From an uncultured Myxococcales bacterium (GTDB lineage Bacteria > Myxococcota_A > Polyangia > Polyangiales > Polyangiaceae), in the NCBI GenBank assembly GCA_937872925.1, contig CALMUT010000028.1, positions 1 to 64,000 on the forward strand: a stretch of 64,000 nucleotides of DNA. Reading direction: 5' to 3'. The notes beneath the pieces are model-generated. The model was not told where the DNA came from. It saw only the letters and a program-made list of their open reading frames with translations, and did no database searches. Below are positions 34,345-41,508 of the stretch, piece by piece. Position numbers and translations under genes: made by a program. The stretch's first letter is position 1; the number at the start of each line of letters is the position of its first letter.

Positions 34345-35115
34345 TCAGAGCGTGGGGCTCAGCGCGTCGTCGATCTCCACGGCGGGTTTCCGCTGCTCGA
34401 ACTCTTTGCGCTTGGCCTCGAAGTGGGCCTTGAGTTCATCTTTGCTCAGAACCTGGTCGCCGTTCTTGTCCGCCTTTTCAAGGTGTGACCGTTTCCGCTC
34501 GGGGATTTCTGCGAGCTCAAGAGTGCCGTTCTTGTTCTCGTCTAGCTTGTCGAACCACGCTTCGGGGTTCATGCGGTGTTTGCCACGGAAGCCGTGTTTG
34601 CCATGTCGGCCCTTGAACTTGAGGGTTCCGTTTTCGTGGGCTTGCTCCAATTCGGCTTGGGTCAGCTTGCCGTCGTTGTCGGCGTCGGCGACCTTGAGCT
34701 TGTCCCAACGCCGACCCGCCTCCGCCTCCGTGACGAAGCCGTCGTTGTCGGAGTCGATTCGGGCGAACCGCTTGCCCTTTTCGGCTAGCCTATGGGCTTC
34801 GAGTTCGGCGACTGAAAGTGTGCCGTCCTTATCTGTGTCTGCGCCTTCGAAAAAGCGTGCTTTGCGTTCGGGCAGTTCGCTGAGTTGCAGCACGCCGTCC
34901 TTGTTTTCGTCGAGCTTCTCGATCATCGCGGCCGGGTCGTGGCAGCCTTTGCGGGCTTGCTTTTCGACAGCCGGGGCCGCTGGCTGCTCGGCAAGGGGCT
35001 CTTGGGCCTCGTCGAAGTCTTTGGTGTCGACGGGACCTTGGCTGCAGCCGACGGTAGCGAGGAGAGAAGTGATGGCGAGGGTCGAAAGAGCGGTGCGAAT
35101 CAGTGTGCGTTTCAT
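34345..35115 (-). CDS. Lipoprotein with six EF-hand calcium-binding motifs
   Basis: A signal peptide ending in TVGC starts a 256-residue protein whose body is a chain of EF-hand loops: DENKDGVLQLSE, DTDKDGTLSVAE, DSDNDGFVTEAE, DADNDGKLTQAE, DENKNGTLELAE and DKNGDQVLSKDE. Each has the Asp/Asn, Gly6 and Glu12 pattern needed to bind calcium. A basic patch ('GRHGKHGFRGKHR') separates loops four and five. As an outer-membrane or periplasmic lipoprotein it could buffer or sense calcium. It is divergent from the ECF sigma operon, with 184 bp between, so shared control is possible. Helices around the loops are rich in Lys and Glu. Confidence 0.9.
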   Translation of the reverse strand: MKRTLIRTALSTLAITSLLATVGCSQGPVDTKDFDEAQEPLAEQPAAPAVEKQARKGCHDPAAMIEKLDENKDGVLQLSELPERKARFFEGADTDKDGTLSVAELEAHRLAEKGKRFARIDSDNDGFVTEAEAGRRWDKLKVADADNDGKLTQAELEQAHENGTLKFKGRHGKHGFRGKHRMNPEAWFDKLDENKNGTLELAEIPERKRSHLEKADKNGDQVLSKDELKAHFEAKRKEFEQRKPAVEIDDALSPTL

Positions 35116-35240
35116 ATGGGTGAGACGCGCCGCAGCCTCGAACTCCTACGGGCTTCCTGGATTTTCTCAAAAAGGCCAGTCGTCTCAGAGGTTTACGCCT
35201 AGGGTCCCCAGGCGGGAGCGACAAATGCCAGTCTGATCTG

Positions 35241-35266
35241 TAGGAAACGCGGTCCGGCCATCGTCT
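35241..35266 (+). promoter_or_regulatory. Candidate ECF promoter, copy A (TAGGAAAC-N13-CGTCT)
   Basis: TAGGAAAC at 35241-35248 is followed after 13 bases by CGTCT. The same arrangement, TAGGGAAC-N13-CGTCT, precedes the export operon at 36626. ECF sigma factors commonly recognise AAC-containing -35 and CGTC-type -10 elements, though usual spacing is two to three bases longer. It lies 59 bp before the sigma gene's start, which suggests autoregulation. Confidence 0.45.
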
Positions 35267-35299
35267 AGCTTCTGTGATCGCACTAGGTGGAGAGCCGCT

Positions 35300-35836
35300 T
35301 TGGATTCACTCGAACAGGCCCGTCGCCGCGTCACACGGGGCGATGTGGGCGCCTTCCAGAGCATCGTAGAACAGACTGGCGACATGCTCGTTCGCCTGAG
35401 TGCCCGCATGCTCGGAAACGTTACAGATGCAGAAGATGTGGTTCAGGAGGCTTTCGTGAAAGCGTACCAGGCACTCGTAGCCGACGAGTTCGATGGGCGC
35501 AGCTCTGTGAAGACCTGGCTGTACCGAATCGTGACCAACGCCTCCCTCGACGCGTTGCGCAAGCGCAAGCGCAAGGCGGAGGTTGGCGACGACGTCTTGA
35601 CGGATCTGCCAGGGGGAAGCGATGCGGCGCAGCTCGAGGCGCGGATGGCACTGCGAGAACTCTCTGACTATCTAGACGGTTTGCCCGAGGACCAGCGAAC
35701 CGCCATCATCCTCAAAGGAGTGGAGGGTCTGACTACTGGTGAGGTCGCGGCAATCATGGAGACCACCGAAGGCGCGGTGGAACAGCGGTTGGTGCGTGCG
35801 CGGGCAACATTACGCAGCAAGAGGAGCGAAACGTGA
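35300..35836 (+). CDS. ECF-type RNA polymerase sigma factor
   Basis: The 178-residue product has region 2 ('LVRLSARMLGNVTDAEDVVQ' and 'EAFVKAYQAL', with the DAED motif that contacts core polymerase and 'VKTWLYRIVTNASLDALRKR' for -10 recognition) and region 4 ('LDGLPEDQRTAIILKGVEGL', 'TTGEVAAIMETTEGAVEQRL'). There is no region 1 or 3, as in sigma-70 family group 4. The TTG start at 35300 has GGAG at good spacing. The gene overlaps the next by four bases (GTGA), so it is cotranslated with the small membrane protein and the CpxP-like gene, the usual sigma/anti-sigma arrangement for envelope stress. Confidence 0.92.
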   Translation: MDSLEQARRRVTRGDVGAFQSIVEQTGDMLVRLSARMLGNVTDAEDVVQEAFVKAYQALVADEFDGRSSVKTWLYRIVTNASLDALRKRKRKAEVGDDVLTDLPGGSDAAQLEARMALRELSDYLDGLPEDQRTAIILKGVEGLTTGEVAAIMETTEGAVEQRLVRARATLRSKRSET

Positions 35837-36108
35837 CCGCAGGCGACGAACAAGTGGATAGCAAGCTGAAACGTCTTGCGGCCGAGACGGAATCCCTCGG
35901 CGCAAGCGCCCGGTTTTCAAGCCGTGTGATGCAAAGTTTGCCGAGCGTCACGCCGTCAGGCATCTGGACGGACGTGACGGCGTCCGCCAGGTGGCTCATG
36001 CCAGCGTTCGCGCTGGCCGCGGTGGTGGCGGTTGTGTGGGCAGTCTCGTCTGAAGAGCTCAACACAGAGCTCTTGGCGAGCACGGAAACGGCAGAAATCG
36101 AATGGTGA
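35833..36108 (+). CDS. Small single-pass membrane protein, putative anti-sigma factor
   Basis: The GTG at 35833 overlaps the sigma gene's stop. The 91-residue protein has a cytoplasmic N-terminal half ('SKLKRLAAETESLGASARFS') and one membrane helix near residues 55-72 ('MPAFALAAVVAVVWAV'). It lacks the zinc HxxxCxxC motif of ZAS-type anti-sigma factors, so the anti-sigma role rests on position and topology only. It overlaps the next gene by seven bases. Confidence 0.75.
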   Translation: MTAGDEQVDSKLKRLAAETESLGASARFSSRVMQSLPSVTPSGIWTDVTASARWLMPAFALAAVVAVVWAVSSEELNTELLASTETAEIEW

Positions 36109-36512
36109 TTTCGAAACGCACGCGCGCCATCGGGCTGCTGGTCGGCGTTTTCTTGGTCGGCGGAGTTGCCGGCAGTGGGGCGACGTTTGCGTTTGCGCAG
36201 CGCGACATGCGCGGCCTCATGGGTCGAGAAGGTTTCGAGCAACGCAAGATGCGCGCGCTGACTCGTCGCCTTGATTTGACGACCGAGCAACAGACCCAGG
36301 TGCAGGAGATCCTGCGCCGGCGTGGCGAGGAGCGTCGGCAGCTGATGGACAAAATGCAGGAATCCTGCGGCAAACCCGTGGCGGAGCATCGCGCCAAGAC
36401 AGACGACGAGATCCGCTCTGTGCTGACGGACGCGCAGAAACCCAAGTTTGAAGAGCTGATCGAGCGGCGCGGGCGGTACGGAGGTGGTCGGGGCCGTGGT
36501 CCTAAGCGGTAA
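36102..36512 (+). CDS. CpxP/Spy-like periplasmic protein
   Basis: The ATG at 36102 overlaps the preceding stop. An N-terminal signal-anchor ('AIGLLVGVFLVGGVAGSGAT') is followed by helices of the Spy/CpxP type: 'LTRRLDLTTEQQTQVQEILR' is the LTxxQ region that defines the family. The tail is Gly/Arg-rich ('YGGGRGRGPKR'). Related proteins are periplasmic chaperones or metal sensors that report envelope stress. Cotranslation with an ECF sigma factor suggests it feeds back on that response. Confidence 0.85.
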   Translation: MVISKRTRAIGLLVGVFLVGGVAGSGATFAFAQRDMRGLMGREGFEQRKMRALTRRLDLTTEQQTQVQEILRRRGEERRQLMDKMQESCGKPVAEHRAKTDDEIRSVLTDAQKPKFEELIERRGRYGGGRGRGPKR

Positions 36513-36625
36513 CGAAGCGTCCGATTTCTGAGTATTTCTGCCCGAAAAACCGCGCGCGGGGTCGCGTTCACCAGGATTTGTGCCCGATGGTTGAAGATTG
36601 GCGAAAATATTCCTTAGGCGTGGCG

Positions 36626-36651
36626 TAGGGAACGGTTTGCTGCGGGCGTCT
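36626..36651 (+). promoter_or_regulatory. Candidate ECF promoter, copy B (TAGGGAAC-N13-CGTCT)
   Basis: TAGGGAAC at 36626-36633 and CGTCT at 36647-36651 repeat, with the same 13-base spacer, the motif found upstream of the ECF sigma gene at 35241. It lies 66 bp before the GTG of the export operon. The two copies are the only ones noticed in this window. Confidence 0.45.
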
Positions 36652-36691: not shown

Positions 36692-38074
36692 GTGGCAGAC
36701 AATCAAGCTGAACCGGAAGTTCTGAAAACACTGGGCGTTGGCAAGGGGCGGGGCGTGCGCCGCTGGCTGGTGCGAATTCTGGTCCCCTTGGTCCTCTTGG
36801 GTGCGGCCGCAGGTGGGGTCTATGTGTGGCGCACCCAATCCAACAAGGACAAGGTCGAAACCTATTCGACGGAGAACGTCGAGCGCGGCGATTTGCGCCA
36901 AACCGTCACCGCCACGGGCACACTGAGCCCGCTGGACGCCGTCGAGGTCGGCGCGGAAGTCACCGGGCGTGTGACCAAAGTCACGGTGGACATCAACGAC
37001 ACCGTCACCGTGGGGCAGCTGCTCGTGGAGCTCGACGCCGAGCAGTTCGAAGCGCGCGTGGAGGAGTCCCAGGCCCAGCTGCGCAGCGCCCAGGCGTCGT
37101 ACAAGACATCCAAAGCGACGATTGCAGAAGCTGAGGCAAAAGCGCAGCGCACGCGCGAATTGCACAAGCGCGGACTGGCATCCAGCCAGGAGTTGGAGAC
37201 CGCCGACGCAGCATTGGAGCGTGCCAAGTCCAGCGCCACATCGTCTTCGGCGCAGATCAGTCTAGCGCGCGCGGGCCTGAAATCCGCCAAGACCACCAAG
37301 GGCAAGGCGATCATCAATTCGCCCATCGACGGCATCGTGCTCGCGCGTTCCGTCGAGCTGGGTCAGACGGTCACCAGCGGGCTGCAGACGCCTGTGCTGT
37401 TCACATTGGCCAAAGACCTGAATCAGATGGAGCTGACCATCGACGTCGACGAAGCCGACGTCGGCCTGGTCAAGGAGGGCCAGAAGGCGACCTTCGTCGT
37501 GGACGCCTACCCGAAAAAGACCTTCTCTTCGACGGTCAAGCGCCTACACAACCTGCCCAAAGCGGGCACGACGGTCATCACCTACCAAGCGGAACTCATC
37601 GTCGACAACACCGAGCGCCTGCTGCGCCCAGGCATGACTGCGACGGCCACCGTTGTCGTCAACGAAAAGAGCGACGTGCTCAGCGTGCCGAACGCCGCGC
37701 TGCGCTTCAAGCCCGAGGGCGACAGCGAAGAGAGCGGCGGGGCCAAGTCCAGCGGGCTGGGCATTCCCGGCTTGGGGGGCAGAGTGCGCGGCATGCGCGG
37801 TGTCGGTCCGCGGGGTGGTGGCGGCGGCCCGCGTCCTTCGGGCGGCGCGGCTCCCGCCGGAAGCGGACGTGCCGGGGGGCCGCGTCCGGACGGGAGCGGT
37901 GCAGCTGGCGGCGAGCGCAAGGATCGCGGGCGAGTCTACATCGTGGAAGCCGGCAAGCCGAAGGCCGTGCGCGTCCTGATCGGCGCGAGCGACGGACAGC
38001 GCACCGAGATCTTGTCGAAGGAGCTACAGCCTGGCACGCCGGTGATTGTCGACGTGTTGGAGGCGCCGAAGTGA
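36692..38074 (+). CDS. Periplasmic adaptor (HlyD/MacA-like) of an ABC export system
   Basis: A membrane helix near residues 28-48 ('ILVPLVLLGAAAGGVYVW') anchors a membrane-fusion protein: a lipoyl-type half-motif ('LSPLDAVEVGAEVTGRVTKV'), a coiled-coil hairpin (about residues 115-190, Ala/Glu/Arg-rich), the second lipoyl half ('INSPIDGIVLARSVELGQTV') and beta-barrel ('LNQMELTIDVDEADVGLVKE'). An unusual Gly/Pro/Arg-rich insertion of about 80 residues (near 345-425) interrupts the C-terminal domain. Start is GTG 36692. It overlaps the ATPase gene by four bases. MacA-type adaptors link an inner-membrane ABC permease to a TolC-type channel for macrolide, siderophore or lipopeptide export. Confidence 0.92.
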   Translation: MADNQAEPEVLKTLGVGKGRGVRRWLVRILVPLVLLGAAAGGVYVWRTQSNKDKVETYSTENVERGDLRQTVTATGTLSPLDAVEVGAEVTGRVTKVTVDINDTVTVGQLLVELDAEQFEARVEESQAQLRSAQASYKTSKATIAEAEAKAQRTRELHKRGLASSQELETADAALERAKSSATSSSAQISLARAGLKSAKTTKGKAIINSPIDGIVLARSVELGQTVTSGLQTPVLFTLAKDLNQMELTIDVDEADVGLVKEGQKATFVVDAYPKKTFSSTVKRLHNLPKAGTTVITYQAELIVDNTERLLRPGMTATATVVVNEKSDVLSVPNAALRFKPEGDSEESGGAKSSGLGIPGLGGRVRGMRGVGPRGGGGGPRPSGGAAPAGSGRAGGPRPDGSGAAGGERKDRGRVYIVEAGKPKAVRVLIGASDGQRTEILSKELQPGTPVIVDVLEAPK

Positions 38075-38844
38075 CGGCCACGGGCTCGCCTCGGATCAAG
38101 CCCTACGTCGTTGAGTTTCGAGACGTCTACAAGATCTACGGTGAGGGTGACACCGAGGTGCGCGCGCTCGATGGTGTGGACTTGCGCATCGACCACGGGG
38201 AATTCGTGGCCATCATGGGCGCCAGCGGCTCGGGCAAGTCGACCTGTATGAATATCGTCGGCTGCCTGGACGCGCCCACGAAGGGCGACTTCCTGTTCCG
38301 TGGCGTGGATGTGGGCGCGCTGGACAACAACCAGCGTGCACTCTTGCGCCGCCACTACATCGGATTTGTCTTTCAAGGCTTCAACTTGCTGGCGCGTACG
38401 ACGGCGCTGGAAAACGTCGAGTTGCCCTTGGTGTATCGGCGCGTCCCGGCACGCCAACGACGCGAAAAAGCGATGTGGGCCCTGGATGCGGTGGGCATCG
38501 CGAACCGCGCCAATCACACGCCATCGGAGCTTTCCGGCGGGCAGCAACAACGTGTGGCCATTGCGCGCGCGCTCGTGAGTGATCCGTCACTCCTTCTAGC
38601 GGACGAGCCGACGGGCAACTTGGACTCTGCCCGCAAGATCGAAACCATGGAGCTCTTGGTCAAGCTGAACCAGGAGCGCGACATCACCATCGCCATGGTG
38701 ACCCACGAGCCAGATATGTCGGTCTTCGTGTCACGAGTGGTGATGTTCAAAGACGGCAAGATCGTGGATCAGGGCCATCCGAAAGACGTCAACTTTGCTG
38801 GTGCGATCTCCAAGCGCCCGCTTTCGGAAAGGTCCGCAACATGA
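38071..38844 (+). CDS. ABC transporter ATPase (MacB/LolD-type)
   Basis: The 257-residue nucleotide-binding subunit has Walker A 'GASGSGKST', the Q-loop region 'IGFVFQGFNLLART', the signature 'LSGGQQQR', Walker B 'LLLADEPTGNLD' and the switch His in 'MVTHEPD'. The closest type by pattern is the MacB/LolD class that powers FtsX-like permeases. It overlaps both neighbours by four bases (GTGA and ATGA), so the whole export operon is translationally coupled. In E. coli MacB the ATPase and permease are fused; here they are separate. Confidence 0.95.
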   Translation: MTATGSPRIKPYVVEFRDVYKIYGEGDTEVRALDGVDLRIDHGEFVAIMGASGSGKSTCMNIVGCLDAPTKGDFLFRGVDVGALDNNQRALLRRHYIGFVFQGFNLLARTTALENVELPLVYRRVPARQRREKAMWALDAVGIANRANHTPSELSGGQQQRVAIARALVSDPSLLLADEPTGNLDSARKIETMELLVKLNQERDITIAMVTHEPDMSVFVSRVVMFKDGKIVDQGHPKDVNFAGAISKRPLSERSAT

Positions 38845-40046
38845 TCTGGCTGACCATCGTCATGGCACTGCGAGAAATCCGCCGAAACACGCTACGGTCC
38901 ATTCTTACGATGCTCGGCATCGTGATTGGTGTGGGCGCGGTGATCGCTTTGACGACCATCGGTGCTGGCGCCACCGCGAAGGTGACCCAGGACATCAGCA
39001 AGCTCGGCGACAACTTGCTGATCATTTCCCCGGGCGGAGACCGGCGGTCCACGGGTTTCAGTCAAGCAAGCGGCTTCACCAAGGACGACATTAGCGCAAT
39101 TCAGCGCGAAGTCCCTGGCGCAGAGCAGGTCGCGCCGACGGTGAGTTCGCGCGCGCTGGTGGTGTGGGGCAACAAGAATTGGCAGTCGAGCGTCACGGGA
39201 TCGACTGCGGCCTACCTGGACGTCCGCTCCTACGCGGTGGCCAAAGGCCGTTCCCTGACAGACGTTGAAGGGGGTTCAGGTCAGCCGCTGTGCGTGCTGG
39301 GTGCCACCGTAGTCAAGGAGCTATTCGGCAGTGCGGACCCTCTGGGGGAGTCGATTCGCGTAGGAAAGGTGAGCTGCGAAATAATCGGGGTCCTGGCGGC
39401 GAAGGGGCAGTCAGGCATGGGACAGGACCAAGACGACATCGTGCTCATGCCCCTGCGCGCAGTGCAGCGGCGCCTGCTTGGCAGCAACGACATTCAGCAG
39501 GTTTACGTCAGCGTGGCCAAGAACCGAAATACCACGCGCGTCAAGGGCCAGATTGAGGCGCTGCTGCGCGACCGGCGTAAGGTCGCCAAGGACGCCGAAG
39601 ACGATTTCAACGTGCGCGACATGGCCGAGATCGCAGCAACGGTGACCAGTGCCACGGGCGCATTGACAGCACTACTTGGCGCGATTGCCGCCGTGAGCCT
39701 GTTGGTCGGCGGCATCGGCATCATGAACATCATGCTGGTCAACGTGACGGAACGGACCCGCGAGATCGGCATTCGCCTCGCCATCGGGGCTCTGGCCCGC
39801 GAGGTGTTGCTGCAGTTTCTGGTCGAATCCATCGCGCTGTCCATGCTGGGCGGTTTGTTGGGAGTGGGCTTCGGCCTTGCCGGCTCCTACGCGGTGACGA
39901 ACGCGTTGAAAGTGCCCTTTGTCGTCGATCCGACGATGTTGATGCTGGCCTTCGGTGTGTCCGCATTCATCGGCGTCGCTTTCGGTTTTCTTCCCGCGCA
40001 GAAGGCTGCGCGGCTCAACCCCATCGAGGCATTGCGTCATGAGTAA
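38841..40046 (+). CDS. ABC transporter permease (MacB/FtsX family)
   Basis: The 401-residue protein has the MacB topology: an N-terminal membrane helix after 'LREIRRNTLRSILTMLGIVI', a large periplasmic domain (about residues 50-265) and three C-terminal helices. Those lie around 'ALLGAIAAVSLLVGGIGIMN', 'LLGVGFGLAGSYAV' and 'LMLAFGVSAFIGVAFGFLPA', and the family sequence 'VNVTERTREIGIRLAIGA' lies between the first two. Such permeases do not form a channel but transmit ATPase motion to the periplasm, driving substrate through the adaptor and outer channel. The gene overlaps the next by eight bases. Confidence 0.95.
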   Translation: MIWLTIVMALREIRRNTLRSILTMLGIVIGVGAVIALTTIGAGATAKVTQDISKLGDNLLIISPGGDRRSTGFSQASGFTKDDISAIQREVPGAEQVAPTVSSRALVVWGNKNWQSSVTGSTAAYLDVRSYAVAKGRSLTDVEGGSGQPLCVLGATVVKELFGSADPLGESIRVGKVSCEIIGVLAAKGQSGMGQDQDDIVLMPLRAVQRRLLGSNDIQQVYVSVAKNRNTTRVKGQIEALLRDRRKVAKDAEDDFNVRDMAEIAATVTSATGALTALLGAIAAVSLLVGGIGIMNIMLVNVTERTREIGIRLAIGALAREVLLQFLVESIALSMLGGLLGVGFGLAGSYAVTNALKVPFVVDPTMLMLAFGVSAFIGVAFGFLPAQKAARLNPIEALRHE

Positions 40047-41508
40047 TCGGATCCTTCCCCGCGTCTTCTCCCTGCTACTGCTCGCGGGCACGGGCACGGC
40101 TCAGGCGGAGACTCCCATCGATGCCAATACGGCAGTGCGGCAGGCGCTCGCCAACAACTGGAACCTGAAGTCAGCGTCCCTCGATATCGAACGAGCCCGC
40201 CAAGACGTGCTCGCAGAAGAGGACCGCTATCCGTACATTTTCGGGGCGGACGCCGGCGTGACTCGCAGCGAGAGCCCGCGACTCACGACGGGGGACAACG
40301 TGTCGAGCAGCATCAGCCGTTCCTACACCGTGGGCAGTTCCTTGCGGCGAACCTTCGCCACGGGCACCACCGGTGAAGTTCGATTGCAGGGGGATCGCTT
40401 CGAGAATGAGACGCAGCAGGGGTTTTCAGGCAGCGCCGTTGGTAGTGGCTATGGCGTGACCGGGCGTTTGTCCGTCACGCAGCCCCTCATGCGGGGAGCT
40501 GGCACGCGCGTGGGGGAGGCGGAGCTGCGCGCTGCCCGAGTCAGCCGTGCCCTGGCTGAGCGCACCAAGCAGCGAGTCACAAGTGCGCTGATTCGGGACG
40601 TGCTGCTTGGCTATTGGGAGCTGTGGTACGCAAACGAATCTGAAAGCATCGAGGCCGCCGCTCTCAAGCTGGCTCAAGCCCAAGAAAAAGAGGCCAAAGA
40701 ACGCGTGCGTCAGGGCGCGCTGGCCCCGGCGGATGTGCTGACGTTCACCACGCGCGTCGCACAACTCGAAGAGAGTGTGGTGTCGGCGGGTATCGGCAAA
40801 GAGCAACGTGGATTGTCACTGGGGCAGCTGATGGGCACGATGACGGACGCCTCGAATTTGGTTGCTTCGAGCGCTCCGCCCACATCGCTGACACCTGCAT
40901 CGCGCACGGAGATCGAGGCGTCACTGCGCTCCGGGTCCGTGGAGCTGGCGGAAGCCGAAGCCCAGGTACGGCTGGCAAAGACGCGCGCCGAAGTTGCGGG
41001 TGAAGCATCGCGTGCACGTCTGGATCTGGACGGCTTCGTGCAAACCGAAGGCGTCAGCACGGGGATCCCAAAGGCCGGCGCGCGTGCGGCGCAGATGGGC
41101 TGGCTCACCGCGCACGTGGGCTTGACCTTTGAGACGCCTCTGACCAGTTCTCGTGGTAACGCCCAGCGGAATTCCGCTGTGCTCGCGGTGAAGATTGCCG
41201 AGCACAACGTGCGCGCCACTCGTGACCGCATTGCGTCCCAGGCAATTCTTGCCGTGTCGGAGCAGCGTGCCGCCGAGCGACGCCACCAATTGGCGGAACG
41301 CACCCTGGAAGTCGCCAAAAAAGCCCACGCCGCCGAAAAGGAGCGCTTCGAACTGGGTCAGGGCCTGCCGATCACGGTGCAGCAGGCCGAAGACGAAGTG
41401 CGGCGGGCACAATTGCGCGTCGCCCGCGCCCGTGTCGACATGGCGCAAGCGGAAATCAGCGTGCAGCACCTGTCAGGGCGTCTGTACCGAACTTGGTTGC
41501 GGCGCTAA
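40039..41508 (+). CDS. TolC-family outer-membrane efflux protein
   Basis: Starting at ATG 40039, inside the end of the permease gene, the product has a signal peptide ('LLLLAGTGTAQA') and 489 residues with the internal duplication of outer-membrane efflux proteins. Each half has long coiled helices ('NWNLKSASLDIERARQDVLA' in the first, 'SVELAEAEAQVRLAKTRAEV' in the second) and short barrel strands. It completes a tripartite pump with the adaptor, ATPase and permease upstream. Substrate is unknown. No lipobox is present, unlike many OprM-type homologues. Confidence 0.92.
   Translation: MSNRILPRVFSLLLLAGTGTAQAETPIDANTAVRQALANNWNLKSASLDIERARQDVLAEEDRYPYIFGADAGVTRSESPRLTTGDNVSSSISRSYTVGSSLRRTFATGTTGEVRLQGDRFENETQQGFSGSAVGSGYGVTGRLSVTQPLMRGAGTRVGEAELRAARVSRALAERTKQRVTSALIRDVLLGYWELWYANESESIEAAALKLAQAQEKEAKERVRQGALAPADVLTFTTRVAQLEESVVSAGIGKEQRGLSLGQLMGTMTDASNLVASSAPPTSLTPASRTEIEASLRSGSVELAEAEAQVRLAKTRAEVAGEASRARLDLDGFVQTEGVSTGIPKAGARAAQMGWLTAHVGLTFETPLTSSRGNAQRNSAVLAVKIAEHNVRATRDRIASQAILAVSEQRAAERRHQLAERTLEVAKKAHAAEKERFELGQGLPITVQQAEDEVRRAQLRVARARVDMAQAEISVQHLSGRLYRTWLRR

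Follow-up and report, generated by a model that had tools for sequence, protein, structure and literature searches.

Here, we describe the genes and predicted promoters of an ECF sigma factor locus in a 64,000-nucleotide stretch of DNA (the window) from an uncultured Myxococcales bacterium. The ECF operon lies between a divergent EF-hand lipoprotein gene and a MacA-ABC-MacB-TolC-like operon, with the following features:

34345..35115, minus strand: EF-hand lipoprotein, 256 aa, predicted third target (EF-hand models, e.g. 6.3e-23, Pfam)
35124..35149, minus strand: P3, predicted promoter of the divergent EF-hand lipoprotein gene (GTAGGA-N16-CGTC)
35240..35265, plus strand: P1, predicted promoter of the ECF operon (GTAGGA at 35240-35245, 16-base spacer, CGTC at 35262-35265)
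35300..35836, plus strand: ECF sigma factor, 178 aa, TTG start, recognition helix EGAVEQRLVRAR (Sigma70_r2 1e-18, Sigma70_r4_2 7.6e-16, Pfam)
35833..36108, plus strand: putative anti-sigma factor, 91 aa (position, overlap, conserved neighbourhood)
36102..36512, plus strand: membrane-anchored Spy/CpxP-like helical periplasmic protein (profile match to E. coli Spy)
36625..36650, plus strand: P2, predicted promoter of the MacA-ABC-MacB-TolC-like operon (GTAGGG-N16-CGTC)
36692..38074, plus strand: MacA-like periplasmic adaptor, 460 aa (NCBIfam MacA, 181.8 bits, cut-off 342)
38071..38844, plus strand: MacB/LolD-type ABC ATPase, 257 aa (Pfam, NCBIfam)
38841..40046, plus strand: MacB-like FtsX-type permease, 401 aa, separate from the ATPase (MacB_PCD 1.7e-50, FtsX 9.3e-19, Pfam)
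40039..41508, plus strand: TolC-like outer membrane efflux protein (OEP 6.2e-25; start 40039 by coding score)

The 178-aa protein carries sigma2 and sigma4 domains above the Pfam cut-offs and no other sigma domain, and thus falls under the definition of ECF (group IV) sigma factors given in excerpts of PMC8103513, in which these two are the only promoter-binding domains. It scores 102.9 bits against the NCBIfam sigma70-ECF superfamily model (cut-off 42.9), and its TTG start is found at the same place in several orthologues. The 91-aa protein encoded next is a putative anti-sigma factor by its position, with a short N-terminal part, one hydrophobic stretch (by reading) and a short tail; no zinc motif was seen in it and neither Pfam nor NCBIfam gave a match. 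A short protein follows the ECF gene wherever one could be delimited (21 aligned).

The third protein of the operon is a candidate sensor. Its profile matches E. coli Spy (3oeo) at 3.4e-6, and because its matches to NCBIfam Spy (7.9e-6) and CpxP (1.7e-5) are below the equivalog cut-offs, and those to Pfam Metal_resist and LTXXQ below the Pfam cut-offs, it is assigned to the Spy/CpxP proteins at superfamily level only. The structure model is helical (pLDDT 80.5, pTM 0.47), and a fold search listed both CnrX and Spy, none of them significant (CnrX E 5.8 or worse, all Z ≤3.9). One Cys is kept in most of 24 aligned orthologues (it is absent from, e.g., L045 and L052) and may be a redox or metal site. 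Since the MacA score and that of the MacB permease (244.5 of the 966 bits of the NCBIfam cut-off) fall short of the MacAB-TolC equivalog level, and since ATPase and permease are separate genes, we call the exporter MacAB-like. The EF-hand lipoprotein has a signal sequence and a lipobox-like LATVGC, both read in the translation.

A sequence-only reading of the window had pointed to two copies of TAGGRAAC-N13-CGTCT, agreeing in all fixed positions and in spacer length, 59 and 66 bp before the start codons of the ECF and export operons. Both copies are present without mismatch (35241-35266 and 36626-36651, plus strand), at these distances from TTG 35300 and GTG 36692. A scan of the assembly (9,389,512 bases, 377 contigs, 95% complete) gave a divided answer: the exact form occurs at just these two places, but allowing one mismatch raises the number to 8, compared with 19 for the reversed control, so the loose form is at background. 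Such a background frequency is what a chance similarity of two GC-rich upstream regions would give, and conservation among relatives bears directly on that explanation.

A search of 60 genomes of the family yielded an orthologue group consisting of the window's own genome and 22 others at ≥133 bits, the next best match being at 97 bits. The rule GTAGG-N17-CGTC was fixed from the upstream regions of the own genome and 8 relatives, before the remaining loci were scanned, and was found in 20 of the 22 relatives; in the other two (L046, L051) the contig ends near the ECF gene, 53 and 201 bases upstream of its predicted start, and both were left out of the count. Scanning contigs with the single ECF protein gave 80 loci, mostly distant ECFs, from which L076 alone was taken as an orthologue (a Myxococcales MAG, 58% identical; next best locus 41%). 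A profile search of 282 genomes of the phylum, in which 12 candidates per genome were scored, added two further orthologues (L250, from another family, and L252), so that orthologues occur in at least 8 of these 282 genomes, the own genome included.

Upstream of the ECF operon, GTAGG-N17-CGTC is present in all 24 assessable loci (own and 23 orthologous), with about 0.08 expected from dinucleotide shuffles (about 0.04 per set). Nine of these loci served to derive the rule; the held-out loci comply in 15 of 15 cases (0.037 expected), including L053, where the motif was visible before the rule was written, though unused. Conservation of this kind refutes chance similarity, to which we give a negligible probability. 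Eleven held-out loci have the motif farther away, 0.9-1.3 kb ahead of the ECF gene. In 10 of them its start is followed, at 47-115 bp, by the start of a predicted gene for an exported protein, which would then come first in the ECF operon; in the remaining one (L058) the start of the gene after the motif could not be placed.

The conserved element has other boundaries than first read. When spacers of 10 to 25 bases were scanned (own and 22 loci, 200 kb), N17 gave 30 matches and each other spacer 0-10. At these 30 sites, C precedes GTAGG in 90%, the base after GTAGG is a purine (G 80%, A 20%), and A stands three bases after CGTC in 80%. Of 35 sites, only 5 carry RAAC after GTAGG, P1 and P2 being among these five, and TAGGRAAC-N13-CGTCT was rejected in favour of GTAGG-N17-CGTC. 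Comparison with the promoters of orthologous sigma factors, which had been suggested as a check, thus brought out a conserved element but moved its edges.

The same shift removes the supposedly short spacer. ECF spacings given in parts of PMC11588781 are GGAAT-N18-20-GTT and GTAAC-N17-18-GAT (N18-20 in the introduction of the same paper), and the conserved register, GTAGG-N18-GTC, lies inside this range. The spacer had seemed shorter than usual because the variable AAC was taken as the -35 core; the proposal of a short spacer was rejected.

In the own genome, GTAGGR-N16-CGTC has 13 matches (reversed control, 45), and 3 of the 13 fall inside one 1.53 kb stretch. The third of these, P3 (minus strand, 35149-35124), had been missed in the earlier reading and faces the EF-hand lipoprotein gene, with only 8 bases between its CGTC and the ATG. 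This short gap might mean a leaderless mRNA or a start at CTG, codon 5, the position at which the L041 orthologue has its start Met. Six of the other ten matches are within scored ORFs, two (L069, L072) have no scored gene just downstream, and one (L063) has a weakly scored ORF downstream, which leaves P1, P2, P3 and L074 as the matches that lie outside any ORF and are closely followed by the start of a well-scored gene. The L074 copy (1501-1526; G000:C205:11152-11177) begins 37 bases from a predicted 393-aa ORF and is a possible extra target.

Among the relatives, divergent copies point towards EF-hand proteins (L041, L042, L076, L252), towards MacA (L043, L044, L047, L053) or towards an LTXXQ (Spy-like) protein (L052); L250 has the divergent EF-hand gene and no second exact motif. 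The exported protein under the motif is an EF-hand protein in some genera (own, L042 and L076; Pfam, 2/2 tested relatives). In other genera it belongs to the Spy family and has an LTXXQ domain; there, 8/8 tested were above the cut-off (L018, L048, L050, L052, L054, L057, L059, L061) and five of the eight have two LTXXQ stretches. A further target that is either an EF-hand or an LTXXQ protein points to the periplasm.

For the pump, 30 of 39 matching MacA-like loci from the 22 ECF-bearing relatives were examined, and 8 of the 30 have the exact motif just upstream of the MacA-like gene. Four of these genes stand beside the ECF gene (G009, G028, G040, G046) and four are not adjacent to it: those of G014, G018 and G027 are on other contigs, and that of G056 is 5.4 Mb away on the same contig. 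The G018 gene (L203) encodes a more distant homologue (37%), its ATG 45 bases after CGTC. G006 has a one-mismatch motif before MacA, in G055 the pump directly follows the ECF operon, and in G013 the contig begins at MacA. As controls, 30 of 43 matching MacA-like loci were examined. They come from 26 genomes out of a set of 29 in which no ECF orthologue was detected; these 29 were taken from 37 such genomes sampled in the family, the eight others being left out, and as some are incomplete (77-100%), the selection refers to detection and not to absence. The motif was found at 0/30 control loci within 1.5 kb upstream, nor was a one-mismatch form found within 300 bp; the contrast is imperfectly matched, the control MacA proteins being on the whole less similar to that of the window.

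These data bear on the suggestion, made in the sequence-only reading, that the ECF sigma factor controls both itself and the pump. Self-control is made very probable by the element before every assessable ECF operon, and pump control is supported by the four non-adjacent MacA genes set against the controls, but the MacA orthologues of G021 (same genus, and the one congeneric genome searched), G024, G032, G039 and G041 have no motif. The last observation would suit an arrangement in which the sigma factor acts on its own operon and on the lipoprotein gene next to it, the copy ahead of the pump being an inactive remnant or an inactive gain of this lineage. We regard that arrangement as unlikely, given that the exact motif lies at most about 90 bp from the estimated or read MacA start in the own genome and in the four adjacent and four non-adjacent cases, that it is missing from all 30 MacA-like loci examined in genomes without a detected orthologue, and that in L048 the pump genes come directly after the ECF operon.

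Any regulon is tiny, since genome-wide enrichment was seen neither in the 22 ECF-bearing genomes (92 matches to CGTAGGG-N16-CGTC, 133 in the reversed control) nor in the 29 genomes without a detected orthologue (90 and 123). A large regulon was accordingly rejected, the motif being at or below control frequency.

A protein bound to one face of the DNA could also account for two short blocks with constant spacing, and the element might be an operator of another DNA-binding regulator (e.g. a dimeric repressor), with the blocks, 17 bases apart, as half-sites. However, the blocks are neither inverted nor direct repeats of each other, their distance and the -10 block (CGTC with the frequent A three bases on) match ECF promoters as these are described in the excerpts used here, the element travels with the ECF gene, and no other common regulator gene was noticed in the ORF lists of the loci (by eye, N-termini). 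An operator of this kind is quite improbable, and we consider it highly likely that GTAGGR-N16-CGTC is a promoter read by the ECF sigma factor of 35300-35836.

Through this one promoter code, which recurs in related genera and departs from that of the best-studied ECF sigma factors, the stress-response sigma factor very probably turns on itself, the neighbouring cation-binding EF-hand lipoprotein and the export pump. The data show the conserved element, where it lies, that it goes with the ECF gene, and the invariant residues; we infer recognition of the element by the sigma factor, sequestration, sensing and export, which could be connected as follows. In the resting cell, the one-TM anti-sigma factor would hold the ECF sigma factor, and the Spy-like periplasmic protein would set the state of the anti-sigma factor. 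On an envelope signal, for which misfolded protein, a cation or a toxic amphiphile are candidates, the sigma factor would be released. It would then amplify expression of its own operon from P1 and turn on the genes of the tripartite exporter from P2 and that of the EF-hand lipoprotein from P3. Such a module, very probably autoregulated, would be ordinary in kind and unusual in its -35 specificity.

According to passages of PMC8103513, a -35 box with AAC and a -10 box with CGT were early hallmarks of ECF promoters and are now regarded as an early generalisation that does not define the class, target promoters being too diverse; the central A-tract of the -35 is described there and in parts of PMC6713349 as widely conserved. 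At the present locus, CGT is found at the usual spacing (CGTC 17 bases after GTAGG), and the -35 register is occupied by GTAGG in place of AAC. The unusual specificity proposed earlier therefore survives for the -35 sequence (GTAGGR, not GGAAC), but not for the spacing. Parts of PMC6713349 report the contacts made by E. coli sigma-E and B. subtilis SigW: Arg176/175 reads G-35, Ser172/Thr171 and Thr169/168 read position -34, and Arg171/Lys170 reads the template G at -31.

Alignment to these two proteins places Arg166, Gln162, Ala159 and Glu161 at the contact positions. All 23 aligned orthologues have Glu161, Gln162 and Arg166, and 22 of them have Ala159 (the broken G006 copy was left out). Written in the sigma-E register, the motif reads G-35 T-34 A-33 G-32 G-31, and Glu161 takes the place of E. 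coli sigma-E Arg171 where the -31 pair changes from C:G to G:C. Glutamate can take a hydrogen bond from cytosine. Region 4.2 may thus have been re-tuned, with Arg166 holding the G at -35, Gln162 and Ala159 facing the T at -34, and Glu161 reading the -31 pair with its template C. On balance, we favour the view that this ECF clade exchanged the A-tract/AAC -35 code for GTAGGR by a reversed -31 contact (Arg to invariant Glu) together with Gln at -34. In that case sigma factor and promoter would form a natural orthogonal pair, and the regulon would comprise one to three promoters.

Glu at the position equivalent to 161 was found in 7 of the 80 ECF loci of the contig scan, and Glu-Gln in L076 and L084. 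No GTAGG-N17-CGTC lies within 300 bp of the latter, a Mesorhizobium ECF; a Glu-Gln pair is therefore not enough to predict such a promoter. A literature search for ECF sigma factor with GTAGGG found no paper, and a search with GTAGG revealed no such promoter in the part of the matches considered by title and opening of the abstract.

Like E. coli sigma-E and B. subtilis SigW, the ECF of the window is a two-domain sigma factor with an adjacent putative anti-sigma gene. As far as those two systems are described in the excerpts used here, an element before the own operon, a CGTC -10, normal spacing and an Arg for G-35 are likewise in common, whereas the present -35, GTAGGR, lacks both AAC and the A pair at -33/-32, and Arg171 and Ser172 of sigma-E are replaced by Glu161 and Gln162. 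A conserved clade that lacks the A-tract and shows a residue-for-base exchange in the recognition helix would offer a natural test of region 4.2 specificity, and its GTAGGR sigma/promoter pair is a candidate orthogonal switch.

In its parts and logic, the locus resembles CnrYXH of Cupriavidus metallidurans, in which an ECF, an anti-sigma factor and a periplasmic sensor control their own operon and trans-envelope efflux, in the portions of its description used here. In size and topology, CnrYXH comprises a small anti-sigma factor and a membrane-anchored sensor. Excerpts of PMC9045368 present it as an ECF sigma factor with a membrane-bound anti-sigma complex, CnrYX, that has a periplasmic sensor, and with efflux as its output. 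Unlike CnrYXH, the window has a MacAB-TolC-like exporter rather than CnrCBA and a different gene order, and the profile of its sensor finds Spy and not CnrX, the fold match to CnrX being weak. Since the sensor is Spy-like by sequence and the fold match is not significant, we claim the logic of CnrYXH and not membership. The locus would bring a Spy-like sensor together with a MacAB-type exporter and a lipoprotein in one small circuit.

Two further systems resemble it in part, as described in excerpts of the respective papers. Promoters of C. glutamicum sigma-D (GTAAC-N17-18-GAT) also have T-34 after G-35 and a similar spacing, but keep AAC and have GAT as the -10 (PMC11588781). CorE of Myxococcus xanthus, which is copper-dependent, is likewise a myxobacterial ECF controlling efflux genes, but has its own Cys-rich domain (Cys mutants), and the search for CorE sites relied on an AAC -35 (PMC3107203).

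A paralogous second ECF with the helix GT[IV]AWR[VI]HEAR (AWRVHEAR) lies divergent beside a second MacA in 14 of 45 MacA loci (L204, L210-L214, L225, L229, L234-L236, L240, L243, L245). GTAGG-N17-CGTC was found at 0/14 of these loci on either strand, and other blocks (GATAG, GACAA, TTGG), common to up to 7 of the 14, lie between the genes. The ECF orthologue of G006 (L054, 1477-2034) was recovered with two in-frame TAG codons, and the motif and the anti-sigma-like and Spy-like genes are present at this locus.
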